Source: a virus
IMG/VR virus record: IMGVR_UViG_3300044712_000593
Location: 1-41,121 of that record
Length of the DNA stretch: 41,121 nucleotides
Strand: one strand, 5' to 3'
Below, piece by piece: positions 4,465 through 41,121 of this stretch. Every line of letters begins with the position of its first letter. Positions within the stretch are counted from its first letter, which is position 1. The position numbers and the translations under genes were made by a program. The notes beneath the pieces are model-generated. The model was not told where the DNA came from. It searched no databases and saw nothing but the letters and a program-made list of their open reading frames with translations.

Positions 4465-4862
4465 TTAATAAATATTACGATAATAATAAAGGCAGCTACA
4501 TAAGCCCCTTTTAAGGAGTATACAACCCATTGCGGCCACTTATTTTCTACCTTATCTGTATCACTGTTTGTTGATCCTTCGCCATTATAAAATAACTGTT
4601 TTTTACGCGCTATATTTAATGTAAAATCAAACAAAGCTAATCTTTCAAGTATTCCAATTAAAGGAACTTTTAGCGCATACCACCAATCATAAAGTAGAAT
4701 ATATGGGATGGTAGCTAATCCTACAGCCAATGCATACCAAACGCCTTTCCAGAAATGTGAAATTGTTTTGTTCTGCTTAAATAGATGGGCCTGATGTAGT
4801 GCCTGCCAAACGATAATAGCAAAAAGGAATGTGATTATTAGTATTTTATCTAAAAAAATCAT
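4461..4862 (-). CDS. Membrane protein of the lysis cassette, 133 aa
   Basis: The protein has about four hydrophobic segments: residues 5-20 (ILIITFLFAIIVW), 40-58 (GVWYALAVGLATIPYILL), a weaker one near 65-80, and a C-terminal one (YVAAFIIIVIFIK). Between them is a basic/polar loop with a Ser/Asn/Asp-rich stretch. No family is recognised. Both ends overlap neighbours by 4 nt (ATGA type): the endolysin downstream and another membrane protein upstream. That position makes it a candidate holin or holin partner, but this is inference from context. Confidence 0.6.
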   Translation of the reverse strand: MIFLDKILIITFLFAIIVWQALHQAHLFKQNKTISHFWKGVWYALAVGLATIPYILLYDWWYALKVPLIGILERLALFDFTLNIARKKQLFYNGEGSTNSDTDKVENKWPQWVVYSLKGAYVAAFIIIVIFIK

Positions 4863-5278
4863 TTGTTTGTAGTCTCTACTTTATGTCCCGGAGCTGTAAT
4901 ACCTGCATTACTTTTATCAGTACACGCCTTCCCCCACGGACAGGTGAAAAGCAATAACGACAGCAGTATGAGCACCCATGTAATGTTGGTCTTTCCTCTT
5001 AATTTTTTGCCCAGCTTACCGGCACCTGTTTCATTGTAAACGGCAACAACAAAGCAGGCAGCGCCAATGATTGAACAGATGGTAACCCATGTCCAGAATG
5101 AAGGCCATTCCAATTTAAGCGTCTCCCATCCGGTAATACATTTTTGAGGGCCTCCCATCAGGCCATAACATTCTGTGCTATTCAGATATACGCAAATGCT
5201 GAATATAAAAATTGCAATGATTAGTGCCCCTACAATCAAGTAAGGAATTAAATCTTTTTTTTGTTGCTGCTTATCCAT
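4859..5278 (-). CDS. Cysteine-containing membrane protein, 139 aa
   Basis: Three hydrophobic segments are visible: YLIVGALIIAIFIFSICVYL near the N-terminus, WVTICSIIGAACFVVAVY in the middle, and ITWVLILLSLLLFTCPW near the C-terminus. Several Cys residues lie in or just outside the predicted membrane spans (ECYGLMGGPQKC). It has no known motif. It overlaps the next gene by 4 nt and starts 2 nt after the stop of the coiled-coil protein upstream, so it belongs to the same lysis or membrane cassette. Confidence 0.6.
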   Translation of the reverse strand: MDKQQQKKDLIPYLIVGALIIAIFIFSICVYLNSTECYGLMGGPQKCITGWETLKLEWPSFWTWVTICSIIGAACFVVAVYNETGAGKLGKKLRGKTNITWVLILLSLLLFTCPWGKACTDKSNAGITAPGHKVETTNK

Positions 5279-5280
5279 AA

Positions 5281-6054
5281 TTAAAACATTTTTCTTTTAA
5301 TTGATAAAGGTAAATTCATCTGTGTTTGTATCATTTGCCCATAACGACCATAATACCAAGTAGCCCCATATTGTACACGGTATTTAGTTTGATACATTAG
5401 GCCCACACCAGCTGAGGAAGGCCATGGATTCCAAAGTACATCCCATGAGAAATAAAGTTGCCCTTTGGGGGCTGATGCGTTTTGCGCCTTTTTACTTATC
5501 TCCATGCAATCCTGAAGGCTTTTAGATAATTTGGCTTTCTCTTGTTCTTGTTGGCCTATTCTATCTGTTTGTAATTTGTCTTTAACACGTAATGAAAATT
5601 TAAGTTGCTCATTATCTAATCTATACTGTTGTACTAACTTCTGACCATTTTCTAGTTCAGTAAAACAACCATTGCAATCAACTATAAAATCATTTGGCAC
5701 ATACGTATGTGAAGTGTCTGAGTCTGGTGTTATTTCTTTGTGTTTGTCAAGTAGGATATTAATTCGCTTATTGGCTGCATCCAATTCTACAGATGTTTTC
5801 GCAAGTTGATTGTCTCTTATTTCTACTTGCCAGTTAGCCAATTCCAATGATATTTTATACTCTTTCTTATTATCACTGAACTGAATGCTATCTTTGGTTA
5901 TTCTCTTTTGAAGTGAATCATTTTTTGTTTTCAATTCTTGATTAACTGCTATTACTTGACGGTTATTACTGCATCCTTTTATTAAGGCGAAAATAAGAAT
6001 AATTATTCCGGCTATTAGGATAGTGGCTAATGCGGGATGTATTTTTAATTGCAC
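5281..6054 (-). CDS. Membrane-anchored coiled-coil protein, spanin candidate
   Basis: This 257-residue protein has a short basic N-terminus and one hydrophobic span (ATILIAGIIILIFALIKGC, about residues 10-28) that ends in a Cys and could be lipidated. A long heptad-rich coiled-coil region follows (about residues 35-105 and again 140-190). The C-terminal ~55 residues are rich in Tyr, Trp and Gly (for example YGATWYYGRYGQM), alternate in a beta-like pattern and finish with Phe, as outer-membrane beta proteins often do. An inner anchor, a periplasm-spanning coiled coil and an outer-membrane-like end beside an endolysin gene suggest a spanin-like role in disrupting the outer membrane. This is inferred from architecture, not homology. 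Confidence 0.5.
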   Translation of the reverse strand: MQLKIHPALATILIAGIIILIFALIKGCSNNRQVIAVNQELKTKNDSLQKRITKDSIQFSDNKKEYKISLELANWQVEIRDNQLAKTSVELDAANKRINILLDKHKEITPDSDTSHTYVPNDFIVDCNGCFTELENGQKLVQQYRLDNEQLKFSLRVKDKLQTDRIGQQEQEKAKLSKSLQDCMEISKKAQNASAPKGQLYFSWDVLWNPWPSSAGVGLMYQTKYRVQYGATWYYGRYGQMIQTQMNLPLSIKRKMF

Positions 6055-6063
6055 GTTATATAA

Positions 6064-6276
6064 TTAATGTGATTTGAAAAATATATGCATACTTGCGCCT
6101 AACCATTCACACACTTTTTGATAGGTAAGTAAATCCGGCATTTGCCCATTTTCAAGTCTGGACAGCGTAGTATAGTTTATACCGATCTGCTCGGATGCTA
6201 TCCGCAATCCTATGTTTAACTTATCTACCCTTTTTATCTTTATAGCTTTTGAAAATTCATTTTTCTTAAAAAGCAT
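6064..6276 (-). CDS. Small HTH (XRE/Cro type) transcription regulator
   Basis: The 70-residue protein starting at MLFKKNEF contains a helix-turn-helix of the Cro/CI type: LRIASEQIGINYTTLSRLEN, then GQMPDLLTYQKVCEWLG. The SRLENG motif is the classic end of the recognition helix. I preferred the ATG at 6276 to the GTG five codons upstream (6291). It lies within the lysis cassette, an unusual place for a regulator in a late operon. A 14-bp inverted repeat (6292-6305) lies just upstream of its start and is a candidate operator. Confidence 0.75.
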   Translation of the reverse strand: MLFKKNEFSKAIKIKRVDKLNIGLRIASEQIGINYTTLSRLENGQMPDLLTYQKVCEWLGASMHIFFKSH

Positions 6277-6291
6277 GTTGCAATATGGCAC

Positions 6292-6305
6292 AAATCACAT
6301 GATTT
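6292..6305. promoter_or_regulatory. Inverted repeat upstream of the HTH gene (possible operator)
   Basis: AAATCA CA TGATTT is a perfect 6-bp inverted repeat with a 2-bp spacer. It occupies the short gap between the upstream membrane-protein gene and the HTH gene. Dyad symmetry of this size is typical for dimeric XRE-family regulators. Autoregulation is inferred from position only. Confidence 0.35.
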
Positions 6306-6320
6306 AACAAATTAAATATT

Positions 6321-6578
6321 TCACCTTCTGTTTTGTTTTTCCTGGAGCTGGACTAAGATTTCAGTTAGCTGATCACGTATTTTGCCAAACTCTTGGTTAT
6401 CTGACTGTATTTTATCCCTTAGTAGTAGATTTATATCCTTTTGAGAACTTTCTAAAAATTCTATTTTTACCTTTTGTGCTTCTATTTTCGTGGCCAAATT
6501 AACAATCATGGTTCCACATGTGATTATCAATAAAATTAACGAAACGAGGGCTTGCCAGATTTTAAGTCCTTTCTCCAT
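6321..6578 (-). CDS. Membrane protein with C-terminal coiled coil, 85 aa
   Basis: Starting at MEKGLKIWQ, the protein has one transmembrane helix (ALVSLILLIITCGTMIVNLA) followed by a charged, heptad-like coiled coil up to the C-terminus (about 50 residues). The frame extends upstream to an ATG at 6668 (115 aa), but that would overlap the C-terminal coding region of the preceding gene by 133 nt. The shorter start still overlaps it by 43 nt. A single span plus coiled coil inside a lysis module could be a holin, antiholin or spanin component. No family is recognised. Confidence 0.5.
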   Translation of the reverse strand: MEKGLKIWQALVSLILLIITCGTMIVNLATKIEAQKVKIEFLESSQKDINLLLRDKIQSDNQEFGKIRDQLTEILVQLQEKQNRR

Positions 6579-12622: not shown

Positions 12623-13135
12623 TTATTTTTTTACCCGAATCATTATTTTCTTCTGTTGTTCTGTTGGTTCTGTAGCGGATATTACGGGTATACGTCCTGC
12701 TAACTGCTGATTTATTTGGCTATGGGATGTTCTAAATCCGGGGCCAACTCCATATCCTAATGCTTTAGTCTTTGTAATTACATCGTGTACGTATGGATCA
12801 TTAGATCCTATTGAATAAAATGCATTTAATTTTTCTTCAAGTGGTAGCTTTTGAATATCGGGACGTGTATTAAATATGTATGCATGATTCATCAGCTTTT
12901 GGGCTGAATTTTGTCCTACTAAGTTTGTTAAGTCACTATAAATACCAGCTTTTTCATCTGAGTTTAATATGTTTCCTTTACCAACTAATTCCATTAATCT
13001 ATCTCGCAAATCCATATCTCTATCAATAGTTGTTCCTCCGGCCCCTAAAGATGTTGTTTGCTTTACTTCACCAGTTCCTTTTATAGGATCACCGGTTGTT
13101 GGTGCTACTTTTACCATTATTTTTTTCTCTGCCAT
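12623..13135 (-). CDS. Hypothetical virion-module protein, 170 aa
   Basis: The protein is soluble. Its two ends resemble each other: KKIMVKVAPT near the N-terminus (residues 4-13) and KKIMIRVKK at the very C-terminus. The middle is helical (RDRLMELVGKGNILNSDEKA, then LEEKLNAFYSIGSNDPYVHD). No family is recognised. It starts 12 nt after the stop of the giant 1883-residue protein and probably works with it. The terminal Lys/Ile/Val motifs could be interaction or targeting signals, which is speculation. Confidence 0.5.
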   Translation of the reverse strand: MAEKKIMVKVAPTTGDPIKGTGEVKQTTSLGAGGTTIDRDMDLRDRLMELVGKGNILNSDEKAGIYSDLTNLVGQNSAQKLMNHAYIFNTRPDIQKLPLEEKLNAFYSIGSNDPYVHDVITKTKALGYGVGPGFRTSHSQINQQLAGRIPVISATEPTEQQKKIMIRVKK

Positions 13136-13147
13136 AAAATTTAATTT

Positions 13148-16100
13148 TTATTTATGTAGACGAGTTGGTTTTGCTGGTCTTGTTGGTTTTGCTTTTACTG
13201 CTTGTGTTGCTCCTGCACCACCTCCGCTGCCGCCTCTTGATTTATTGAAATCCCTTTCATCTGATGTTTTTATTCCTTCAAATGCAGGTAAGAATCTATT
13301 TAAAAGCGTCCATGTACCATCATTTTGCCATCCTTCTTTTAATTCTTTTACCGATAGAGGGGTTAGTAATGCTGCTGGCAAATCCTCAACCCCAAACGGC
13401 TCTTGCGTGAAATAATTCTTTCCTTCCGCTAAGTCGTATACCGCCCCTGCCGCTGGTGTCATCTTTCCCCTAAAGAAACCGCCTATTACCCCTACACGTG
13501 TTTTGCCCCCGTATTTTGGATTATCCAAATCTTGCTCACCTCCTTGTCTTACTCTTACACCTCCAACTGCTTGTACTAATGCTTTGATTACGGGAACATA
13601 TCTGCCAAAAACATTATAGTGATGATCACCTGCTATAATGTCCCCGAAAGTTACACTTCTCGGATCGTAATCAACCTTCGCTCCCCCTAATGATGCTGCA
13701 CCCATTATCGCCACTCCCATAGCCACACCACGACCTAATTGCCCTAAAGCGAATCTGCGTTGTGTCGGGGTTAAATTTTGATAATATCCTTTACCTTTCC
13801 AACCTAATACTAAATCACTTAATCCTAATGTATTTATAGTAGAAGTCAAAAGACGTGGTGCCCAAATGAACGGTGTAACATATGGTGCTGCCTGCGCCAA
13901 TCCTGCTGGCATTTTACCCCTTCCTGTCAATTCATTAATAGCTCTTGCAGCATCTTTATATTCTTGTGGATGACTTTCAAATGTCTTTCCTTCCGCTTTT
14001 AACATATTCATCCGTTTTTCAAATAATCCTAAGCGGAAATTATTACCCATACTAGTGAATGCACGTTCAAATATGCCACCAGTATATTTCCATGGTTGAT
14101 ATTCTTCACCTTTTATTTTTATTTTGCCTGCTAATAAATTTTGTTCGAATGCTTCCTCTACTTGTTTTGATGCGGCTGTATGCGGCTCTACTATATCAAG
14201 CTCGCTTTTTTTAATTATCTCCCAATCCGGCCTTGCATGAATAGCAGCCAATTCACGTTTAAATTCTGCATCATTGAACGCTTCCTTCCAGTGTTTCAGC
14301 CATACTTTTGCCCCTAATTTTGGATTAGCCAGCATAACCAACCCATTTTGCACAAACGTAGCCGAATCATCTATGCCAGCCATCAATGCTTTACTTGTAT
14401 GAACTAATTTGCCGCCAAAATCAACTGCTTTTGAAAACTTTGACCTTTTAGCCATTTCATCATTGAATAATGCTAAGTCAAATTCATGTTGGGCATCTTC
14501 TTTTTTGGCTATAGCGTCTAATGCTTCTTTTCTTAATTCTGGATGGCGTTGCTTTACATCTTCACGATCAAAAATAGATTTCTTTGGTTCTTTTTCAAAT
14601 TCGCCCTTCTGTATTTTATCTTTTATTTTTTTCTCGGTTTGTTCATTTCTCTTTTTAATGGCTCTTAATTCTTCGGCTCCATCTTCTGCTTTTAATCCTT
14701 TTATTTTATCTCGCAATTCTTTTATTTTCTGGTTGCGTTCTCTTTTGGCTTTTTCTGTTTTTGGTGGAGTCCCATTTTCCAAAGCCTCCAATTGGTTAAT
14801 CAGTTTTGCTTCATCTTGTAAATCTCTTATCTGACGTTGTAATTCAGATAATGGCTTTCCTTTTTCATTATATTCACCAGCTATAATATCATGTATATTC
14901 TTTTCGGTTAAGCCTTCTAATACATCTTTAAATTCATTATGCAAATGACTTACTACGTCTTGTAAATTATCTACGCCTTGTGCCACTAAGTCAACCATGA
15001 TGTTTTTTACATGCGGAGCAATTGCCATTAATTCTCTTACGCCGGGCAACGGAACAGCGGACAATCCACTTTCACCAGTACGCAATTTTCTAAGCGCTTC
15101 ACGGGCAGCCTCTATCTCACCTCTTCTATAAGCAATTCTTTCTGCTGCTGTTTTCTTCTCTCTTTTGGTCGCTGATTTTACTTTTTTAAATTCTTTATCA
15201 GCCTCCAATTTTGCAACTTGCTCTTCCAATCTTGCAGTCTTTTCAGCTGCTTCATCAGCTGCTTTTTTGTATTTGTCCACCTGCGCTTCAACGTCTGCCT
15301 TTTGTTGATCAGTTAATTTATCAACAGCATTCGCTTCCATTTTAGCAACCATTGCATCCGTCAAATCATTAACAGGATGCGGGCGCGAACCTCCTTCCGG
15401 CAATCTAAGAGCAGCGCCAGCTTCTTGTCGGGCAATTTGACCAATATCTTTTATTCTTTTTACCTTTTGAAGCTGCCGATCAAATTCGGGAGAAGTTCTT
15501 GGTGTTTCTCTTAGTTTTTGTGATTCATTAGCCAAATACTGTTCTAAAATCAATCGCTGCTTTGCGGTTGGCACATGTTCTTTGCTTTCAATCCTATTTA
15601 ATAGATCATCAACGTTTCTTTGGTATTCTCCATTTTGCGCCCATTCATTCGTTGTAATCTCTGCATTCTTTCTTTCCTGAATATCAGAAACACGGTCACG
15701 GCTTTTTACATCTTCATAACCAAATTCATTGGCAACCTCCTGAAGTCCACGGAAACTTAATTGCGTAGATGGCCGTTCAACATATATTCCTTTCCCTTCA
15801 GACGGAGGCAATGGCGGCGCTCCTACCCCTTCTTGACTCGCACCATAACCTTCTTGGCTGGCTCCTTCTTGGCTTTGTGCATTGGCAGTTTCCTCTGATT
15901 CGGGTATTCGTGCGCCCATCGACGGGCTATTTCTGGATGTTTGGCCCAAAGAAATTTCCTTTGAGATTCGCTCGCGAAGGGCATGATTTGGTAGATTTTC
16001 AGTTACTAAATCAATTATCTGTTTCGTTTTGGACGGATCTTCTCGTAATGCTTGCTCCAACATGTGCCGCACAATCCCTGCGCTCTGTGCTTTTTCTGTA

Positions 16101-18799
16101 TTGTTCCGCAATTTTGGCAATTTTTGTACTTCTTCGACCACTCGTCTTTTTTCAAACTCCGAAAGCTGGCTACTCTTTTCATTTCCTGACAACCCTTCAA
16201 TTTGCCGTGAAGTTCCGAATGTTTCTGATGGCTCAGTAGTTCCAGATTGTCCGGATCGTTGTCTAAGCTGTTCAGATTCTTGTGGTGGACGTGTTCGTGC
16301 TTTTTTAGCTTCCTCCCCAATTTCTTTTCCATAATTACCCGATGTTCGTAACGCCTCCCCTCCTCTGTCATTATTACCCAATAACTCCCCGACTTGTCCT
16401 TCCTTTGCCATCGACTGCCTAATGAGTTCTTCCTCCGCGTTTGTGCTCTTTTCTGAATTGTTGCTTTCGATGGCATCCAACCAGTCAATGGATGCTTGTA
16501 ATCTGGCTGCTTCATTTTCTCCAATAAGGTTTGCCGCTGTTTCTCTATTGATTTTTGGCTGCGTTTGTGACCTTTCTGGAAAGATGTCTTGGTTGCTTTT
16601 TGATTCGCCATATGTTTTTGGCAAACTTAATGAACTTTTCTCAGGAAGGGCATCGTTTTGTGGTTTTATAGTTATAGTTTCAGGATGTTTTATTTCTCCT
16701 GGTTGAATAATTGAAATTGTTGGTTCCTTGACTTCCGGTGCAGGGAACAATTCTTTAGCATAATCCACAACCGTATCTCCAAATTGATCCCTAACTGCAT
16801 CTTCTGGTAATGCTTCAGATAATGGCCTCCAATTTTCATCTCTTTTTTGTGCTTGTTGAGCAATCATTTTCCAGAAACCAATTGGATCTTTTTTGATCAT
16901 TTCCTCATAGGTGTCGGGCAATATTCCCTCATGCAGCCATTCTTCTGCAATTTCAGTAGCTTCCTTTGCCTGATCTTTGCTTAATCCATTTTCTGGCTTT
17001 ATTGGCTTTTCTATTTCTTTTGATAAGGCTAAATTATCTTTAGTTAATTTCTCAATCCTTTCTTTAATTGGTTCCTGTAATGACTTGTGAGTAGTTTCTT
17101 TTTGCTGCTCTAATTCATTCAACTTATCAATATTGTCCTGTATTTTAAATCTGGCTTCTTCAGTTACATTTGGCGGTATTTGAGCATCTTTTTCTTTATA
17201 CTCATTGATTCTTTGTTGAGTTTCATCAGCGGCTTTTTGGGTTATTTCTCCGCTTTGAACTTTCTCTTGCAACATTCCATTCACTTGTTCATCTGGCATC
17301 TTCGAAAGTCCATGCAGCAACGTTCTGTAATTAGGCTTAGTCATCCCACGGCCTGCTTTAATAGCTGCTGCCATAGCAACTGTTCCCAATAATCCCATTT
17401 CTATTTGCTCGGCTACCCCTTCGCTCAATGGGCGGTCAATGCCGATGGATTTTGCTAATTGATTCTTGTATACTTGCCCCGCTGCGCCTACTCCCCCTAT
17501 TGCCAATCCTTCTAAACCAGCGTTGCCAAGTTCGTGACCACTTGATTTAAGAACATTAAATGCAGCTTGTTTAAATGAATTGCTTAACGGCATAGGAGCA
17601 ATAGGTTTAACTCCTATTTTAGCACCCACCAAACCCATAGCACCACCCGTTACCGCTCCAACTTCTGCTGCTTGTTCGGCCTGACTTCTCGCTTGCCTTA
17701 CTGCCTCGAACTTTTCAACACCTTGACCTCTTAATTCATTGTATACCTGCTGGAACGTGGACGCGTATTCTAACTTAGCAAATTCACGTCCACCTATAAT
17801 TGCGCCTGCTGCCATCCCTGCTTGCGGCCCTCCAAAACTTGCAATAGCCCCTCCCAATATTGGCTTAATAGGTGTACCTCCTAACATTTGTGTTATCTCA
17901 GACAATTTCCCTTTTGGCACCGGAATCGGTTCATCCATATCGTGCCTATTTCTTCTATCCTCTAAATCCATTGCAATAGCAGCATCATTTTCTGTATTCT
18001 TCAAAAAATCATAATCGGCAAATAATTTGCTTTTTTGCTTCCACCCTTCAATAGCACCTCCAACTAAGCCCAATGGCTTAATTAGCTTATTGCTTCTTGC
18101 ATCATATATTAAATTACCTTTCGATATTTGTTTTGCATTATCTTCTATTTTTGAAACTCTATCATGTTGATCTAGTTCCAATGAATTAAATGCATCAATC
18201 GTATATAAATTTTTTTGAATTTCTTTTGCTTTTTCAGGATACTTTTTCATGGTTTCTTCCATCATACGAATAGCTTTACCACGATCAGCCTGAATATCTA
18301 TATCCTCTTTTGCCAAATCTTCATCAGTAATAGGTAGGTCTTGCGGCTTGGTTGCTTGTGGAATTAGTCTTTGCACGTCAATTTCTGCCTGAGTTTTCGG
18401 CATATCAGTTTTAGCCACAGATATATTTGAGGCCGCTTGCTCAAATCGGCGTTGCTTAATCATATCTGCCTTTATATCCTTATTGCCGATTAATTCATTT
18501 TGGATGGCCTCATGCGCTACTCTTGCTTTGCCTTCTAATTTTAAAGGAGCTAATTCGTCTTTTTGTTTTTGATCGGTGAATTCTCTTGTAATTTGAGCAG
18601 GAGCGGATTTAAAAGTAGGCTGTGATATTTGGATTTGAAATGCTTGTTGTGGTTGTTCTACTGGTTTTTCGGTAACAAGTTTAGCCCGTAATCCTAATGG
18701 ATCAGGTGCAATTTGCTTGATAGCTAACTTTTTCCTCAACCCTAAAGGATCGGGGTCACCACCGTTTTCTATTTGATTATATATTACTTCTTCGGCCAT
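13148..18799 (-). CDS. Giant internal virion (cargo/ejection-like) protein, 1883 aa
   Basis: This very large protein is probably packed in the virion and ejected. The N-terminus carries two copies of a motif (PDPLGLRKKL at 16-25 and PDPLGLRAKL at 32-41). Several Gly/Ala-rich hydrophobic segments (such as GGPQAGMAAGAIIGG, GAVTGGAMGLVGAKIG and, near the C-terminus, GRGVAMGVAIMGAASLGGAK) could insert into membranes. The centre is strongly coiled-coil and charged, with a degenerate GASQEG repeat near residue 975. The C-terminal ~450 residues look globular (ARAINELTGRGKMPAGLAQA) and resemble C-terminal regions of large polyvalent phage proteins. Residues 730-928 are encoded by DNA that also encodes a complete HNH endonuclease in another frame. 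Its start codon shares a base with the upstream stop. Confidence 0.7.
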   Translation of the reverse strand: MAEEVIYNQIENGGDPDPLGLRKKLAIKQIAPDPLGLRAKLVTEKPVEQPQQAFQIQISQPTFKSAPAQITREFTDQKQKDELAPLKLEGKARVAHEAIQNELIGNKDIKADMIKQRRFEQAASNISVAKTDMPKTQAEIDVQRLIPQATKPQDLPITDEDLAKEDIDIQADRGKAIRMMEETMKKYPEKAKEIQKNLYTIDAFNSLELDQHDRVSKIEDNAKQISKGNLIYDARSNKLIKPLGLVGGAIEGWKQKSKLFADYDFLKNTENDAAIAMDLEDRRNRHDMDEPIPVPKGKLSEITQMLGGTPIKPILGGAIASFGGPQAGMAAGAIIGGREFAKLEYASTFQQVYNELRGQGVEKFEAVRQARSQAEQAAEVGAVTGGAMGLVGAKIGVKPIAPMPLSNSFKQAAFNVLKSSGHELGNAGLEGLAIGGVGAAGQVYKNQLAKSIGIDRPLSEGVAEQIEMGLLGTVAMAAAIKAGRGMTKPNYRTLLHGLSKMPDEQVNGMLQEKVQSGEITQKAADETQQRINEYKEKDAQIPPNVTEEARFKIQDNIDKLNELEQQKETTHKSLQEPIKERIEKLTKDNLALSKEIEKPIKPENGLSKDQAKEATEIAEEWLHEGILPDTYEEMIKKDPIGFWKMIAQQAQKRDENWRPLSEALPEDAVRDQFGDTVVDYAKELFPAPEVKEPTISIIQPGEIKHPETITIKPQNDALPEKSSLSLPKTYGESKSNQDIFPERSQTQPKINRETAANLIGENEAARLQASIDWLDAIESNNSEKSTNAEEELIRQSMAKEGQVGELLGNNDRGGEALRTSGNYGKEIGEEAKKARTRPPQESEQLRQRSGQSGTTEPSETFGTSRQIEGLSGNEKSSQLSEFEKRRVVEEVQKLPKLRNNTEKAQSAGIVRHMLEQALREDPSKTKQIIDLVTENLPNHALRERISKEISLGQTSRNSPSMGARIPESEETANAQSQEGASQEGYGASQEGVGAPPLPPSEGKGIYVERPSTQLSFRGLQEVANEFGYEDVKSRDRVSDIQERKNAEITTNEWAQNGEYQRNVDDLLNRIESKEHVPTAKQRLILEQYLANESQKLRETPRTSPEFDRQLQKVKRIKDIGQIARQEAGAALRLPEGGSRPHPVNDLTDAMVAKMEANAVDKLTDQQKADVEAQVDKYKKAADEAAEKTARLEEQVAKLEADKEFKKVKSATKREKKTAAERIAYRRGEIEAAREALRKLRTGESGLSAVPLPGVRELMAIAPHVKNIMVDLVAQGVDNLQDVVSHLHNEFKDVLEGLTEKNIHDIIAGEYNEKGKPLSELQRQIRDLQDEAKLINQLEALENGTPPKTEKAKRERNQKIKELRDKIKGLKAEDGAEELRAIKKRNEQTEKKIKDKIQKGEFEKEPKKSIFDREDVKQRHPELRKEALDAIAKKEDAQHEFDLALFNDEMAKRSKFSKAVDFGGKLVHTSKALMAGIDDSATFVQNGLVMLANPKLGAKVWLKHWKEAFNDAEFKRELAAIHARPDWEIIKKSELDIVEPHTAASKQVEEAFEQNLLAGKIKIKGEEYQPWKYTGGIFERAFTSMGNNFRLGLFEKRMNMLKAEGKTFESHPQEYKDAARAINELTGRGKMPAGLAQAAPYVTPFIWAPRLLTSTINTLGLSDLVLGWKGKGYYQNLTPTQRRFALGQLGRGVAMGVAIMGAASLGGAKVDYDPRSVTFGDIIAGDHHYNVFGRYVPVIKALVQAVGGVRVRQGGEQDLDNPKYGGKTRVGVIGGFFRGKMTPAAGAVYDLAEGKNYFTQEPFGVEDLPAALLTPLSVKELKEGWQNDGTWTLLNRFLPAFEGIKTSDERDFNKSRGGSGGGAGATQAVKAKPTRPAKPTRLHK
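16015..16611 (-). CDS. HNH homing endonuclease nested in another frame of the cargo gene
   Basis: This 198-residue, strongly basic protein is encoded entirely inside the 1883-codon gene, same strand, shifted by one base. An N-terminal NUMOD3-like DNA-binding region (FQKGHKRSQKSIEKQRQ) is followed by a linker and then a full HNH core. The core has YEHRVIMEKKLGRKL (residues 88-102), HVHHKN (107-112), DNDPDNLELL (117-126) and SHQKHSELHGK (127-137). The C-terminus has paired cysteines (CQNC 165-168, CGTC 181-184) that look like a zinc-binding ribbon. The conserved His/Asn/His positions are present and there is no stop or gap, so it is probably active. Codons ending in G (aag, cag, gag, agg) are unusually frequent, as expected if the host frame constrains them. 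The start is ATG behind ccaaaaacat. Confidence 0.8.
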   Translation of the reverse strand: MANQKATKTSFQKGHKRSQKSIEKQRQTLLEKMKQPDYKHPLTGWMPSKATIQKRAQTRRKNSLGSRWQRKDKSGSYWVIMTEEGRRYEHRVIMEKKLGRKLKKHEHVHHKNLNSLDNDPDNLELLSHQKHSELHGKLKGCQEMKRVASFRSLKKDEWSKKYKNCQNCGTIQKKHRAQGLCGTCWSKHYEKIRPKRNR

Positions 18800-20289
18800 T
18801 ATTTAATCAGTCCTGCTTTTTTTGCTTGTTCAATTTCTGCGTCTGAATACCCCATCTTATTCAATTGAGAATGGCTGTATGTCTTACCATCTAAATTATA
18901 CTTTTGTTCTGTTTTTTGTGCTGGCTTAGAATATATGCCACCCATGGTAGTACTAAGTTGTTTTTTTGTTTCGCCTCTATACCCAAGCGACAAATAAGCC
19001 TGATCTAAATCCATTGGCTTACTAACATCCTTGTCTATTTCTGGATTACCACCTACATCGGTCTTTATTGATACACCTATTTTTTTGCCGGTTTTTTCAT
19101 CATAATCTTCTTTGTACTTATAAAAAACAGGCATTATTTTATTATCAGCAGTTACATATACCCTGTCAGGCTCCTGATTGTTTCGTGCCAATCCTTTCAT
19201 CATGACAGCATCGGGCTTAATTTCATATGCCATTTTTATGGTAAGTGGATTGTCCGGATCGGGGATAGGCGTTGGCTGACCTGACTTAGCATCGCCTATT
19301 CTGTTGTTCCAGAAATTAACGATCCAACTATCAGCAGCCTCCTGATCGCCTTTCTTTAATTCTTTTTGATGCCCAAAACGAATGGCTTCCATAGCTTTTT
19401 GACGACCAAATATATCTTCACCCTCTTTAAACTCTATTGACTTTCTGTTTTCTTCTAACATTGACTGCGCCGAAAGTAGTTCTTTTGGTGTTTCTACATC
19501 TTTGCCATAAACTCTTCTATAAATAGAGTTTAACTGATCATGTAGTTGTGGGTTATCCATTACATCTTTCACTATTTTATTAGTTTGAAACTGTAATGCC
19601 CTATCGGTGTCATATGCTGATGCCGCCCTATTGCCAATCACAGCTAAATTTTCATCGCTATATTGTTTTGTAATTGGCGTTCTTGTTTTAAATCCTGGCA
19701 AATATTGGGTTGCTCCTGGTGTTTCATTATATTGCAATCCTGCTGTTAGATATTTACTATAGGCTTCACGATCTTTTATATCCCACGGTTTCGGGGGTAC
19801 TGCTAACGTTGCTATATCAATATCTTGCCGATTCTGATCTCCGATTGGAAGATCATGTAATTTTATTTTATCAACTATAGTAGGATCGTCTAAGATGAAT
19901 GATGTTTGTGGATTGAGTCTGGTTTTATTTAGTTCATCTGTTGTTTTTAATGCTCTTTTGCTTTGCTCAATATGCGCTAATTGATCCTGATAACGGGCCA
20001 TATATTCCGTGTATGCTTTACCATTATCAACACGTGGATTCATAATAGCATCCTTATTTTGAGCATAGAACTGCCTCCATTCATTTGTTTTTTGCGTTAA
20101 CCCTCCCACATCTTGTGATCTCATTCCGGCAGGCGTTATATTTTTACCCATATCACGGAAATAATTATCCAAAGCGTCTTGTTTTGCTTGACGTTGGGCC
20201 ATCTGCTGTTGGAAGAATTGAACGTAGGGGCGTTGATCTATCACTACGTTTCCGGCCAAATATGGGTTAATATTATAATTTATAGCCAT
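18799..20289 (-). CDS. Probable internal virion / cargo protein, 496 aa
   Basis: This soluble, charged protein has a helical, Gln-rich N-terminal region (YVQFFQQQMAQRQAKQDALD). Its C-terminus holds a short module YNLDGKTYSHSQLNKMGYSD, followed by AEIEQAKKAGLIK. No catalytic motif is visible. It lies between a Gly-rich 228-residue protein and the giant cargo-like protein, with start and stop codons that abut. In crAss-like and related short-tailed phages this position, after the muzzle gene, is used by cargo proteins carried in the capsid. The assignment rests on position and composition. Confidence 0.5.
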   Translation of the reverse strand: MAINYNINPYLAGNVVIDQRPYVQFFQQQMAQRQAKQDALDNYFRDMGKNITPAGMRSQDVGGLTQKTNEWRQFYAQNKDAIMNPRVDNGKAYTEYMARYQDQLAHIEQSKRALKTTDELNKTRLNPQTSFILDDPTIVDKIKLHDLPIGDQNRQDIDIATLAVPPKPWDIKDREAYSKYLTAGLQYNETPGATQYLPGFKTRTPITKQYSDENLAVIGNRAASAYDTDRALQFQTNKIVKDVMDNPQLHDQLNSIYRRVYGKDVETPKELLSAQSMLEENRKSIEFKEGEDIFGRQKAMEAIRFGHQKELKKGDQEAADSWIVNFWNNRIGDAKSGQPTPIPDPDNPLTIKMAYEIKPDAVMMKGLARNNQEPDRVYVTADNKIMPVFYKYKEDYDEKTGKKIGVSIKTDVGGNPEIDKDVSKPMDLDQAYLSLGYRGETKKQLSTTMGGIYSKPAQKTEQKYNLDGKTYSHSQLNKMGYSDAEIEQAKKAGLIK

Positions 20290-20986: not shown

Positions 20987-23900
20987 CTACCTATTTGTTA
21001 GCGGTGAATTGATGTAGTATACATTTACAGCACTCAAAGTAACCAGATTAGTTGCATTGGGTGCCCTAAATTTTATTTTAATAAGGTTTCCTTTGAGGCT
21101 ATCGCCCTCCAATCCATTTACACTGTTCACGTCTCCTAAAAATGCTGCTGAAAAATTAGACTCAAAGTTTTCAAAATCCTGTGTAATTAAATTGCTTTGT
21201 TGTGGCGTGCTTCCATAACTCATGCTATTAGTAGTTATCACTGGGCAATCCCATATTGAACTTGCCACTTCGGTTACACTCAAAAAACTCTTTTTTTCAA
21301 TTAAGTTACCATTATACACTCTGGTTATTTCTGGATCAAAGTATTGTCCATAGAATGTATTCATTTGATTAGCCCCTATCGCATCATGTATGTACATTTT
21401 CCCTTGTACAAAGGAGTACAATACATTTTCTGCGCAAATAATTTGCTCAGGCGCAAAGTCATATGGCGATGTAAAACAATTTCTCCCTTCATCAAAGGCC
21501 ATTGTTTCCCCTGCAAAGCTGTCACTTCCTAATGTCCACGGCTGCAAAACACATAAATATTCTCCTGTATTGTCTTTGCGCACGTTAAAAGTTCCTGTTA
21601 TTCGTGCAAATCCACCAAATTGATAATTTCTGTTTGTTAGATAAGGGGGGATATTTTGACCAGCCCACGTTTGCGTTTTGTATAATTCAGATAAATCAGT
21701 GATGCCATCCCTGCTTAGTCTTAATTGTTTTCCTTTGATTGGGTCAACAAAATAATAAACATATCCACTTTGAACAACACTATCCGGCTGATTGCCGACA
21801 CCAAAATTACCTGCATAATATTGAACATTATTATCAGTAATTATATTGGTAGTTGTAACTAACTGCTGGCTGCCTGCACCATCAGATATGAATTTCTGGT
21901 AAACGCCGGTTTGCCCACATTTTCTTTCCTGAAAAAAAGTAAGCAGCCTATCCCATGTAGCCATTCTTTGAAGTGATCCAAATCTTCGGTCTACATTGTC
22001 TAAGTTTTGCGGATAAAATCTATTGGCTTGGTTTATATTAGTATCAGCCTGATATGCTAAACTCCACCGATACATAACAGGGAATGTAGTTTGAGCAGCA
22101 TTTGGATCATAAATGAATGCGCGGCCATTTGAATTTACTGCGCTTGGGAAATAATCTGAAAAGTTTTGATCTATCATTTTTTGTGAAATGACGTGATCAA
22201 TAGTAAAAGTTATGTTACTGGAAAGGATAGTTACCGGACGTTCGCCCCCTTCTGCAATTAGAAATATTCTATCATCTTCCAACGTAATATATGTATCAAT
22301 TGAAAACGTATATGTGCCAGCGGTTGAAGCATCAAACGTGGCTAAATACATTCTTTCGTTAAATCTATTCAGTGTAAATATTCTCCATGTGTCGCCTGAT
22401 ACATTAGTTGTAAAGTTTATTATAATGGTGCCTTTAATATGAAAAGTAGTATTCAAAATCGCCTTTAAAAACCATCTCGTATCAGAAGATGGGGTAATTC
22501 CACCACTTGGGGTATTACCACTTATATTAGCTAAAGAAACACTTTGTGCAGTTATATTTGAATCGGTATATGTTGATCCGGCAAAATTTAATCCAAATAA
22601 GAACCTTCCTGCTGTTAATGTGCCATTTAATATGTTGAAAGTATAAACATTACCAACTTGAACAGCCCTTAGTTTTATATAGAAATCGCCTTTAAAAAAC
22701 TCATAAGTTGCAGGAGTTGCATAATTAGTAGTTTGGTTTTGCAACATCCCTTGATGAAAACGAGTGCTTAAAGTTGGATTTCCTATTGCATACCTTTCGC
22801 CATATTCATAATAAACATCTAAATTATTAGCTACTGATTGGGCAGGTGTGTATAATTCTATTAAATAATTAGCAAATCCATCTGTTCCAAAATCAAAATT
22901 ACCATCCGTTGAAGGAAGTATTAGTTTTACGAATTGGCCTGATTTTGTTTCTCCATTAATAGTTGGATCTACCAATGACGCTACAATTTCATAATCTTTT
23001 GTATCTCCATAAATATTAGCAGTAGTATTATCTGCATTAATGCGCTTCATAAACTTAATCCGATCACCGGCAGTAAAGGCATACCCCAATGGACTTCCTG
23101 GATTCGCTGCCACAAACGCATTCAATGATTCAATACTTACATAAGCATATTTAATAACGCCTGATATTGCCACTGTATCTTTAAATGTCCTATCACTTAT
23201 CCATTGTTGTATTTTGCTTTTTGATAAGTCTTTAGTACGTACCCATTGAAAATAATACGCCCAATCAGGTGGCTGATGATAAATAGAAGCGTTGAATTTA
23301 GCTATATATGGCGTACTTACATCTGCTTCATTAAACGCAATAGAACTTACTGAAAACCCTGATGTATAAACTGTACCATTTGTTCTGCCTTTTTGATCAA
23401 AATAAACTAATCCAAATCCATGCTTACTTGACCAATCATACGCCATTAATGACGTATTCGTAATTGAGTTATACAAGTAGTTTGATGTAATAAAAGTCCT
23501 TGCTAAACTTATCCCCGTCTTGGAAATATATAGATCATTGTCTCCGGTACTGATTATAGTATACCCTTTTGATAATGCATCAACTCTTAACCCCTCAATT
23601 ACCGCTGCTGCGTCATCACCAACCAACAGTGTGTATGTAACTGTACTTGCGTCAGTCATATACACAGTATATGTATCCAGCGCAAAAGATGGAGATGGCA
23701 CAAGACCACGAACAACTATGTGTATGTTCCCTGACCCAAAACCGCTTTTACCCCCCTGATTAGCTATTAATCTGGTGAAATATATACCACTATAAAATAC
23801 GGTTTGACCTGATGTTAAATTGCTTGTTGTAGTGCCATTGCTGAAGTTTGTAAGATTACCATATCCTTCAGTTATGTTACCGTAAGTAAGTACATTCCCA

Positions 23901-24877
23901 TTTATGATAGTCTGCGCTCCTGCAACTTGTGGCACATAATCAAACAATTGATTGCTTTCTTCTACATTAATATAGTTATATGCCTGATTGTTGTAAAATA
24001 AATAAGTTGCTATGTCATTATCAGGAACGCTTTCTACAGCTTTGTCAATTGATGCAATTAAAAAGTAATCAGAAAATACATTGCCTAAACTTACAGCAGC
24101 CAATAACTCTATTTTTTTAACATTGGCTGGCCCCGTTTGATATGTTACTGCAATCCGGCAATTCTTAGTTGGGTCAGTATCTACTTGCTGGTCAAAAGCA
24201 GATGCCGGTAAGCATAACTCACCCTGCGAACTTGTTACTGATTTATCCTGATCATCAAATACCCATTTTTCTTTTATCTTAAAAAGTTTTTTTCTTAAAT
24301 TATTAACGGTATTTGAAACATCATTTTCATATACTGTATATGGAGGTATATCAGCGGGTTCTTTTGCGATATCTAAGTATGACTTTTTGATAGTTCCGTA
24401 GCCACCGTTTACAGCCCGTTGAATATTCAATTTCTTCGGAACTCCATAGCTATCCGTAAAACATAAGATATTGCCTTGCGTACTATCTCCGTATATAATA
24501 TCTATGTTGTAAATTATTCCGGTATCTGTAAACCCTAAAACATCAGTATCTGCATTTATGCCACCTTCAACTAATCTATACCATATTGCCGCAAGAGTAT
24601 CATACATGTAAATGGCCTTATTGTCATCCCCACGGTAATTAAACGTAAATATTTTTTTACCGATTGGATCATAATATCGCCCTATGGTTAAATTGTTGCC
24701 ATCATTTATTAAGAAAGGATTTGTTTTTTCTCTGGTTCCAGGCATATTCCTAACCTGCAAATTAGGAGCAGTACCTTTAAATACGACATTACGCGCAGCA
24801 TTATGATGGATTGCCGGCATCACCTCGTCTGGGTCATCGTAATTTAAAAATCCGCTAAATGGGAAATTTTGAACCAT
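20987..24877 (-). CDS. Muzzle / tail stabilisation-like protein, 1296 aa
   Basis: This long, beta-rich structural protein begins MVQNFPFSGFLNYDDPDEVM. Near residue 140 it has a segment of the type GNILCFTDSYGVPKKLNIQ that I associate with stabilisation/muzzle proteins of Bacteroidota short-tailed phages (a partner phrase about a fluid or instrument-like parameter set precedes it). The central ~700 residues are Asn/Thr/Tyr-rich beta structure. The C-terminal part (residues about 950-1280) contains LDNVDRRFGSLQRMATWDRL and FTSPYDFAPEQIICAENVLY. There is no signal peptide. The size and position (after the ring-like proteins, before the cargo-like proteins) fit the muzzle that closes the short tail in crAss-like phages. 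The start overlaps the previous stop by one base. Confidence 0.6.
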   Translation of the reverse strand: MVQNFPFSGFLNYDDPDEVMPAIHHNAARNVVFKGTAPNLQVRNMPGTREKTNPFLINDGNNLTIGRYYDPIGKKIFTFNYRGDDNKAIYMYDTLAAIWYRLVEGGINADTDVLGFTDTGIIYNIDIIYGDSTQGNILCFTDSYGVPKKLNIQRAVNGGYGTIKKSYLDIAKEPADIPPYTVYENDVSNTVNNLRKKLFKIKEKWVFDDQDKSVTSSQGELCLPASAFDQQVDTDPTKNCRIAVTYQTGPANVKKIELLAAVSLGNVFSDYFLIASIDKAVESVPDNDIATYLFYNNQAYNYINVEESNQLFDYVPQVAGAQTIINGNVLTYGNITEGYGNLTNFSNGTTTSNLTSGQTVFYSGIYFTRLIANQGGKSGFGSGNIHIVVRGLVPSPSFALDTYTVYMTDASTVTYTLLVGDDAAAVIEGLRVDALSKGYTIISTGDNDLYISKTGISLARTFITSNYLYNSITNTSLMAYDWSSKHGFGLVYFDQKGRTNGTVYTSGFSVSSIAFNEADVSTPYIAKFNASIYHQPPDWAYYFQWVRTKDLSKSKIQQWISDRTFKDTVAISGVIKYAYVSIESLNAFVAANPGSPLGYAFTAGDRIKFMKRINADNTTANIYGDTKDYEIVASLVDPTINGETKSGQFVKLILPSTDGNFDFGTDGFANYLIELYTPAQSVANNLDVYYEYGERYAIGNPTLSTRFHQGMLQNQTTNYATPATYEFFKGDFYIKLRAVQVGNVYTFNILNGTLTAGRFLFGLNFAGSTYTDSNITAQSVSLANISGNTPSGGITPSSDTRWFLKAILNTTFHIKGTIIINFTTNVSGDTWRIFTLNRFNERMYLATFDASTAGTYTFSIDTYITLEDDRIFLIAEGGERPVTILSSNITFTIDHVISQKMIDQNFSDYFPSAVNSNGRAFIYDPNAAQTTFPVMYRWSLAYQADTNINQANRFYPQNLDNVDRRFGSLQRMATWDRLLTFFQERKCGQTGVYQKFISDGAGSQQLVTTTNIITDNNVQYYAGNFGVGNQPDSVVQSGYVYYFVDPIKGKQLRLSRDGITDLSELYKTQTWAGQNIPPYLTNRNYQFGGFARITGTFNVRKDNTGEYLCVLQPWTLGSDSFAGETMAFDEGRNCFTSPYDFAPEQIICAENVLYSFVQGKMYIHDAIGANQMNTFYGQYFDPEITRVYNGNLIEKKSFLSVTEVASSIWDCPVITTNSMSYGSTPQQSNLITQDFENFESNFSAAFLGDVNSVNGLEGDSLKGNLIKIKFRAPNATNLVTLSAVNVYYINSPLTNR

Positions 24878-26122: not shown

Positions 26123-26770
26123 TTAATTTTTATATTTCCAATAATAACCACCGCAATATATTCTTTCACCCTTACACACTTTAGATATATTCTGTTTACA
26201 TAATCCGTTTTCGATTGCTGCTTCTGTTATAGAATCATAAACATGTATTATTTTATTTTCTGTATCATATTTAATTACAGGTTTACTATGTGGTACTTCT
26301 TTCCCTCTCTTGCCATATCTACTATTATCTTTACCCTTTTTTACAGTGTAAAATCCGTTTTTGATTGCATGTTTTTGATTTTCACTTCTTGTACACCATT
26401 CAATCATCCAGCATCTATTATCGGATTTATTACCTTTCAAATGATTAACTTCAGGGCCATTGTTTTTATTTATAACAAATTCGTTGGCTACTAATACATG
26501 CACAAATCTTTTTATCCTACTTCTATTTTTTTGAATAACTATTCGTAAATATCCCTTGTCGCTAATTTCTTGTTTTAATATTTTTTCTTTTACACCTCTT
26601 TTTGAATTAAATCCTGAATTCGCTTTCCTTTTTAAGCTTTTTATCCTACCAAATGAACTAATTTCATACAATCCTTCATATCCGGATATTGACTTCCATT
26701 CTTCGTTATATAAAATGCCTTCGTGGACTTCAGATAAATTATCTAATGAATAATTTTTGTAATATTCCAT
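26123..26770 (-). CDS. HNH homing endonuclease with NUMOD4, NUMOD3 and NUMOD1
   Basis: This 215-residue free-standing homing endonuclease has an N-terminal NUMOD4 motif (EEWKSISGYEGLYEISSFGR, residues 23-42, then IKSL). An HNH core follows: RFVHVLVANEFV (88-99), EVNHLKGNKSDNR (107-119), then IEWCTRSENQKHA. Next come a NUMOD3-type loop (NSRYGKRGKEVPHSKP, 149-164) and a C-terminal NUMOD1 (VIKYDTENKIIHVYDSITEA, 165-184) with QNISKVCKG and GGYYWKY. All modules are intact. It sits exactly between a ring-like gene (stop 4 nt upstream) and the GroES gene (start 8 nt downstream), so it invaded an intergenic junction of the structural operon without breaking a gene. Confidence 0.9.
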   Translation of the reverse strand: MEYYKNYSLDNLSEVHEGILYNEEWKSISGYEGLYEISSFGRIKSLKRKANSGFNSKRGVKEKILKQEISDKGYLRIVIQKNRSRIKRFVHVLVANEFVINKNNGPEVNHLKGNKSDNRCWMIEWCTRSENQKHAIKNGFYTVKKGKDNSRYGKRGKEVPHSKPVIKYDTENKIIHVYDSITEAAIENGLCKQNISKVCKGERIYCGGYYWKYKN

Positions 26771-40116: not shown

Positions 40117-40148
40117 CCCCGACTACCATTTTAGTCGGGGATTTTTTT
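40117..40148 (+). terminator. Strong rho-independent terminator of the lone gene
   Basis: CCCCGACTA (40117-40125) pairs perfectly with TAGTCGGGG (40132-40140) around CCATTT, followed by A and seven T residues. It ends the transcript of the plus-strand gene at 39808. The T tract overlaps the stop codon of the converging GT2 gene on the minus strand. Confidence 0.9.
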
Positions 40149-40893
40149 ATTCTCTTTCTTTTGCCCATTGTTGGATTAACATTGGTAATGGCTCATTTAT
40201 TGGGATAATATCGTCATGTGAAAACCACAATTCTGGGTCAAAAGTTTCACATTGGTTTAGTTTTTGATCATAATCCGAGAATTGGAACACTTCTTTCTGC
40301 ATGTGAATTATCTTAGCTCTATGCGCTTTCTTTTCCCGAACAAACCCCATGTGATACATTCTTATATTACTAATATAATCTCCTGCCGCCATACAGCCTA
40401 AATTTTCAGCATCGTCATAAGCCATGTATCCACGTTTAGTTAATCGAATTACTTCAGGGCTACAAGGCATTCTTTCTAAAGGAACGTTTAATTGTAAAAA
40501 CGGATTGCCCCACAGATTAACCCTTGTTATCAAATACCCATTAGCATTTCCATTCATAGCATTTCTAATGAAAGAATAAGAGGCTTCATGTGTTATCTCA
40601 TCAGCTTGTTGATAATATTGCCATTCTGTATTTACTTCTTTCAATGCCTTGTTTGTAAAATAAGATAGCTTCTCTTTTCCCTGTTGGTGTTTCCATTCTT
40701 CATTATCACAAAGAATAATTCTTGTTTGCTTATCTTGAAAGGTCTTTATAAGTTCGCTAGTCCCGTCTGTTGATCCGGCATCCAGAACTATCACTTCATC
40801 GCAAAATTGCTTTAATGATGCCACAGATTCGGTAAGGCAATAGTCCTGTGAGATAGCGTTATATGCAAATGTAACCCCTGTTATTTTATCCAT
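40147..40893 (-). CDS. GT2 family glycosyltransferase, 248 aa
   Basis: The start I chose is ATG at 40893 (MDKITGVTFAYNAISQD), because the upstream in-frame ATG at 40956 lies within the preceding homing-endonuclease gene. The GT-A fold is visible. ITGVTFAYNAISQDYC (residues 4-19) is the first strand and loop. DEVIVLDAGSTDGTSELI (residues 32-49) is the classic nucleotide-sugar motif, and QQADEITHEASY (residues 95-106) carries the acidic metal-binding site, with AD-E in place of the usual DxD. It uses a nucleotide-sugar donor that cannot be read from the sequence, and an unknown acceptor. With the GT9-like gene it suggests glycosylation of the virion, DNA or host surface. Confidence 0.8.
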   Translation of the reverse strand: MDKITGVTFAYNAISQDYCLTESVASLKQFCDEVIVLDAGSTDGTSELIKTFQDKQTRIILCDNEEWKHQQGKEKLSYFTNKALKEVNTEWQYYQQADEITHEASYSFIRNAMNGNANGYLITRVNLWGNPFLQLNVPLERMPCSPEVIRLTKRGYMAYDDAENLGCMAAGDYISNIRMYHMGFVREKKAHRAKIIHMQKEVFQFSDYDQKLNQCETFDPELWFSHDDIIPINEPLPMLIQQWAKERE

Positions 40894-40895
40894 TT

Positions 40896-41121
40896 TTAGT
40901 TGTTTACATATTTCCAAATAAAGCCGCCTGCATGCGCTTGACCACCCCTGCAACAATTTCTGATATTACCTCCATTTATACCTGTAATCCTTGCAGCCTC
41001 TCTAGTACCATGAAAAGTAGCTATAATATTTCCATCCATACCACATTGATTAACCAAAAAGCTCTTAGGGTTGTTTTTACCGAATTTACCATAATTGGAA
41101 GATCGCCTTATCCCTATATCA
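40896..41121 (-). CDS. Partial homing endonuclease, C-terminal NUMOD3/NUMOD1 part
   Basis: The open frame enters from the right edge (frame starts at 41120) and runs 74 codons to a TAA. It contains RRSSNYGKFGKNNPKS, a NUMOD3-type loop, and then GNIIATFHGTREAARITG and INGGNIRNCCRGGQAH followed by AGGFIWKYVNN, a NUMOD1-type DNA-binding tail. The ending closely parallels that of the 26123-26770 endonuclease (GGYYWKYKN). The catalytic part (HNH or GIY-YIG) lies outside the window. Its stop is 2 nt before the GT2 start. Confidence 0.8.
   Translation of the reverse strand, partial: DIGIRRSSNYGKFGKNNPKSFLVNQCGMDGNIIATFHGTREAARITGINGGNIRNCCRGGQAHAGGFIWKYVNN

Follow-up and report, generated by a model that had tools for sequence, protein, structure and literature searches.

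Homing genes had been believed to depend on introns, inteins or intergenic gaps in order to spare the gene that receives them. The window analysed here, a linear virus record of 41,121 bases, raises the question of how such a gene can instead lie wholly inside a protein-coding gene that stays open around it. An ORF for a complete HNH endonuclease occupies another frame of a large gene in the late gene cluster, and we consider it very probable that it belongs to an unspliced intragenic homing element, with a nuclease that would be translated from within the host gene and would home to uninserted copies of it.

A complete endonuclease within an open host gene

The host gene is an ORF of 1883 codons on the minus strand (13148-18799), and the homologues of its product include those at three loci, denoted L199, L012 and L215. 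Searches of IMG/VR, GTDB genomes and INPHARED with the 1883-aa protein as the single query came back without a homologue; the homologues were reached via terminase kin and through alignments of the protein's two halves. The terminase relatives among named phages have Flavobacterium, Cellulophaga and Maribacter as hosts, and the window is therefore taken to come from an uncultured Bacteroidota-type phage. The conserved N-terminal half of the host protein (residues 1-718; 16646-18799, minus strand) is 50% identical to L199 and L215, and the conserved C-terminal half (residues ~942-1883; 13148-15976, minus strand) shows 30% identity to L215 and L199, restarting at residue 940. In another homologue, L197 (1789-8112), residues ~830-970 in the variable part consist of tandem near-identical segments of ~55 residues each.

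The original prediction called this a virion gene with a cargo-like product. Pfam and PHROG gave no family match that would back either label, nor a match to a methylase, and the one hint is the gene neighbourhood, which includes a 1296-aa PHROG virion structural protein (20987-24877) and the terminase, and which suggests that the host protein is a virion protein. Elsewhere in the window, an ORF at 40147-40956 (minus strand) has a weak match to the glycosyltransferase family PHROG 13126.

The nested ORF, predicted to be a 198-codon frame on the same strand with a one-base shift, was confirmed at 16611 to 16015 (minus strand). It starts with ATG, lies wholly inside the host gene and overlaps host residues 730-928. 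HNH_3 (PF13392) matches ORF residues 88-132 with E=1.6e-11 and 44.1 bits, against a curated cut-off of 24.8; a search of the window with the same family places the nuclease core at 16216-16350 (46.9 bits, above cut-off). Ten PHROG families match the ORF, nine of which are named HNH endonuclease. In an alignment with 14 relatives, H109, H110, N118, N122, H131 and H135 are invariant, and the C-terminal CxxC...CxxC cysteines align across all 15 sequences, which bears out the zinc ribbon that had been proposed. For the proposed NUMOD3-like part, on the other hand, Pfam gave no hit at E<=1e-3. AlphaFold models the HNH core with confidence (pLDDT blocks above 90). Foldseek ranked I-HmuI first among solved structures, but at a non-significant E=1.3, and a sequence search of solved structures gave no match. 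A second HNH endonuclease is present in the window as a freestanding gene between structural genes (26123-26770, minus strand), with a NUMOD4 domain and an I-HmuI NUMOD-like part.

The host frame had been described as uninterrupted over residues 730-928, and this holds: there is no stop across the whole overlap, and homologues match the host protein on both sides of it in one and the same frame, so the continuous host frame is real. An assembly artefact is ruled out by the same two observations, the open state of both frames through the overlap and the shared frame of the flanking homology.

The empty site and the inserted segment

L215 provides the empty site. Its 1644-aa ORF aligns to residues 43-718 of the window protein at 50% identity and to residues 940-1846 at 30%, and has nothing between the two. 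A homologue lacking residues 730-928 is what the original prediction had asked to be sought, and L215 lacks roughly residues 719-941. The best join against L215 excises 223 residues, which places the inserted element of ~223 codons (669 nt) at 15977-16645 on the minus strand. Its length is a multiple of three, and it leaves only ~34 nt before and ~38 nt after the HNH ORF. The ends are uncertain by ~5 codons, with joins from 716/939 to 723/946 scoring nearly alike, because the flanks of the window and L215 are only 50% and 30% identical. An early alignment to L012 had appeared to show the homology of the host starting again within the overlap, at residue 884; this was rejected, since L199 and L215 both resume at 940. 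A flank duplication like that of the methylase elements discussed below gave P ~0.02 at first, but P 0.36 and 0.14 with L215, and is not supported at the window insertion with the L215 flanks.

Two origins had been offered for the overlap: insertion of the element into the gene, whose protein then retained the alternative frame as an added segment, or overprinting. The empty site in L215 supports the first. De novo overprinting is rejected, as the HNH family is widespread, with homologues in many phages, and the host-frame segment is absent from L215 and without counterpart in the other homologues. One sequence with this insertion was found when relatives were sought in IMG/VR, prokaryote genomes and named phages.

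About the same point in the protein takes unrelated in-frame modules in two other homologues. L199 carries an unrelated in-frame module of 185 residues near it, and L012 (record G001) carries a segment of 269 residues at the joint (residues ~720-988) with a histidine phosphatase domain (PF00300, E=1.9e-20); neither module holds an HNH in its other frames. Sequence related to the phosphatase segment occurs as a separate gene in records G023 and G026. The window and L199 are 50% identical in the N-terminal half, and L199 and L012 are 50% identical in the C-terminal half. Since kinship among the three differs between the halves, the joint is also a mosaic breakpoint.

AlphaFold returns a weak model for the host-frame segment of the insertion (mean pLDDT 56), mostly disordered with isolated helices. 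An intein-like or other removal of the segment at the protein level would suit an insertion that is in frame and flanked by conserved host parts. However, a domain search of the host protein found no Hint/intein domain in the host frame, and together with a segment predicted as mostly disordered this leaves removal from the protein with hardly any credibility.

Open host frame and expression of the nuclease

When the HNH codons were resampled synonymously with the phage's own codon usage (20,000 draws), the host phase contained a mean of 19.6 stops and a minimum of 8, against 0 observed. Permuting the ORF's own synonymous codons gave a mean of 9.7 host-phase stops, with none of 20,000 permutations reaching zero. 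Chance openness of the host frame is thereby ruled out. As an internal control, the freestanding HNH at 26123-26770 showed normal stop counts, with 16 in one of its other phases and 35 in the remaining one. The remark that HNH codons often end in G was correct: G occupies 69 third positions against 42 expected and T only 29 against 54, with G and C favoured. The synonymous codons of the HNH gene are recoded so that the host frame stays open. The residues read in the host frame also fit the composition of the host protein better than those of stop-free synonymous recodings (z 3.9), and the fit persists under own-codon permutation, which keeps the base make-up (P 0.005).

Phage group I introns often carry HNH endonucleases, and for phage Schatzie, where the arrangement is similar, the annotators had an intron in mind. 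The window segment might likewise be a self-splicing intron of group I or II that carries the HNH gene and is removed from the RNA, with an incidentally open host frame. Yet Rfam gave no match across 13000-19000, even at E up to 1, and the ~70 nt of the 669-nt insertion outside the HNH ORF are too little for a ribozyme core. An intron would also have no need of an open host frame, from which 20 expected stops are missing. We regard splicing as very unlikely.

The element may instead be a domesticated or decaying remnant, in which the HNH frame is kept merely by recent descent, the segment serves as a host linker and the nuclease is not made. This would be in keeping with the match of the host-frame residues to the host's composition and with a joint that takes different modules in homologues, and translation of the HNH is itself inferred. 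But the HNH ORF is intact and keeps its full set of catalytic and zinc-ribbon residues, whereas an unselected frame of 198 codons would be expected to gain stops. A remnant is accordingly an unlikely reading.

A stop codon lies in the HNH frame 15 nt upstream of the internal ATG, and the ATG is preceded by an A+T-rich stretch, as at other genes of the phage, but by prediction the RNA there folds more strongly than around most ATGs in the host gene. Frameshifting, which would fuse the N-terminal half of the host protein to the HNH in place of internal initiation, could draw on two open frames and on an HNH start that has no strong initiation signal. The upstream stop would confine the shift to a very short stretch, however, and freestanding relatives use their own starts, so that we give frameshifting very little weight.

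For an unspliced homing element, the following course is proposed. An HNH gene of ~0.6 kb would have entered a flexible joint in the gene for a large phage protein. With a stop-free host frame, the host protein would be translated over its whole length and would include ~220 additional residues, largely disordered, and splicing would not be needed because the host protein tolerates the segment. Translation of the HNH protein would begin on the host transcript at the internal ATG. In a cell infected by a second phage whose allele lacks the element, the nuclease would cut that allele at the joint, after which repair would copy the element into it. The L215 joint offers a concrete cutting substrate on which homing could be tested. 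Harm to the host gene would be avoided by the open frame, at a large, measurable cost in synonymous freedom (20 expected stops removed), and a large phage protein could by this route gain ~220 new residues in a single step.

Nested endonucleases in other phages and known systems

Relatives of the nested HNH were surveyed at 80 IMG/VR loci, at 11 loci from prokaryote genomes and in named phages. Among the first IMG/VR relatives, the HNH of L004 already lay out of frame within an N6/N4 DNA methylase gene that is open and runs in the same direction. Nested same-strand HNHs were found in N6/N4 methylases of mycobacteriophages, cyanophage Cr-LKS3, several IMG/VR contigs and L205, and in a C5 methylase of phages Constella and Schatzie. 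At L146 (3653-5509) and L155 (3707-5431) the gene around the nested HNH is of another methyltransferase type (PHROG 1008). Two candidates were dismissed: in L132 the helicase begins after the HNH, and in L138 the frame that covers the HNH, which matches no family, may exist by chance.

Host-phase stops numbered zero in all 27 nested cases, whereas 46 freestanding HNH relatives showed no depletion (observed/expected stops of 1.12 and 1.01). The host phase is 1 in all N6/N4 and C5 methylase cases and 2 in the window, L146 and L155. Near-identical HNHs can occur in strongly diverged methylases, as in L099 and L191, where the HNH protein is 95% identical and the flanking methylase 53%, which indicates that the class is mobile.

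Some of these loci have features of their own. L146 and L155 resemble each other in the C-terminal ends that follow the HNH. The N6/N4 methylase of L168 (4213-6639) seems to contain two different nested HNHs (4848-5342 and 6000-6440), each with 0 host-phase stops. At L205 (4000-6198), where the contig comes from a Betaproteobacteria MAG and may represent a prophage, the gene with the nested HNH codes for a methylase. In phage Constella both frames are annotated as genes, and the record for the Schatzie methylase with its nested HNH (L113, 1737-3260) reads 'coding region not determined; unable to determine intron boundaries'.

Insertions of this kind have already been described. The ShiLan domain, known from DNA methylases of actinobacteriophages, is inserted without splicing and hides an HNH in another frame (Arsenault, Gosselin and Gogarten, 2025, PMC11855218; PMC9957025); it has a disjunct distribution (PMC9957025; PMC11855218). 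Pacc40 gp60, with an HNH-like endonuclease, is the second published out-of-frame insertion (PMC11855218). The kind was thus published in 2025 for phage DNA methylases (PMC11855218), and what is new here is a non-methylase host gene with a clean empty site.

That out-of-frame unspliced homing genes form a general, repeatedly evolved class, able to enter non-methylase phage genes, with synonymous sites moulded for an open host frame and new segments arising at module-exchange joints, is a proposition to which we give even chances. An HNH frame with zero stops in one same-strand alternative phase provides a signature for genome scans.

Among known HNH systems, homing endonucleases of the HNH_3 (PF13392), I-HmuI type have the same core as the window HNH, but I-HmuI itself resides in a group I intron. 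Freestanding homing endonucleases, which make up most of the HNH relatives found, resemble it in being unspliced, although they lie between genes whereas the window HNH lies inside one whose frame is open. The host of Pacc40 gp60 is a helicase/methylase fusion, unlike that of the window, and these two endonucleases are set apart here by host gene only.

The closest parallel is with ShiLan. In both, a complete HNH with a zinc-binding motif occupies another frame of an unspliced in-frame insertion, the start and stop of the HNH lie near the insertion ends, the host frame is stop-free and an intron or intein signature is absent. The uninserted homologue that characterises the ShiLan type has its counterpart for the window in L215. 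The two differ in host, a large non-methylase protein encoded beside virion genes in the window and a DNA methylase with a conserved site in ShiLan, and in host phase (offset 2 in the window, offset 1 in the ShiLan methylase elements). The window HNH also lacks the N-terminal zinc finger of the ShiLan HNH, and the relatives of the phages point to Flavobacteriia for the window and to Mycobacterium for ShiLan. In a quick tree, with 6 label changes against 19.1 when shuffled, the window HNH groups with the freestanding L114 and with L213 rather than the ShiLan clade, at a support of 81%; this grouping, weakly supported, suggests that the window HNH may well come from another lineage than that of ShiLan. 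With the non-methylase host, phase 2 and this tentative grouping of the HNH, an independent entry is the simplest reading, which we hold with moderate confidence. Occurring outside methylases, in the other phase and probably with another HNH lineage, nested homing of this type looks like a strategy that has been adopted repeatedly.
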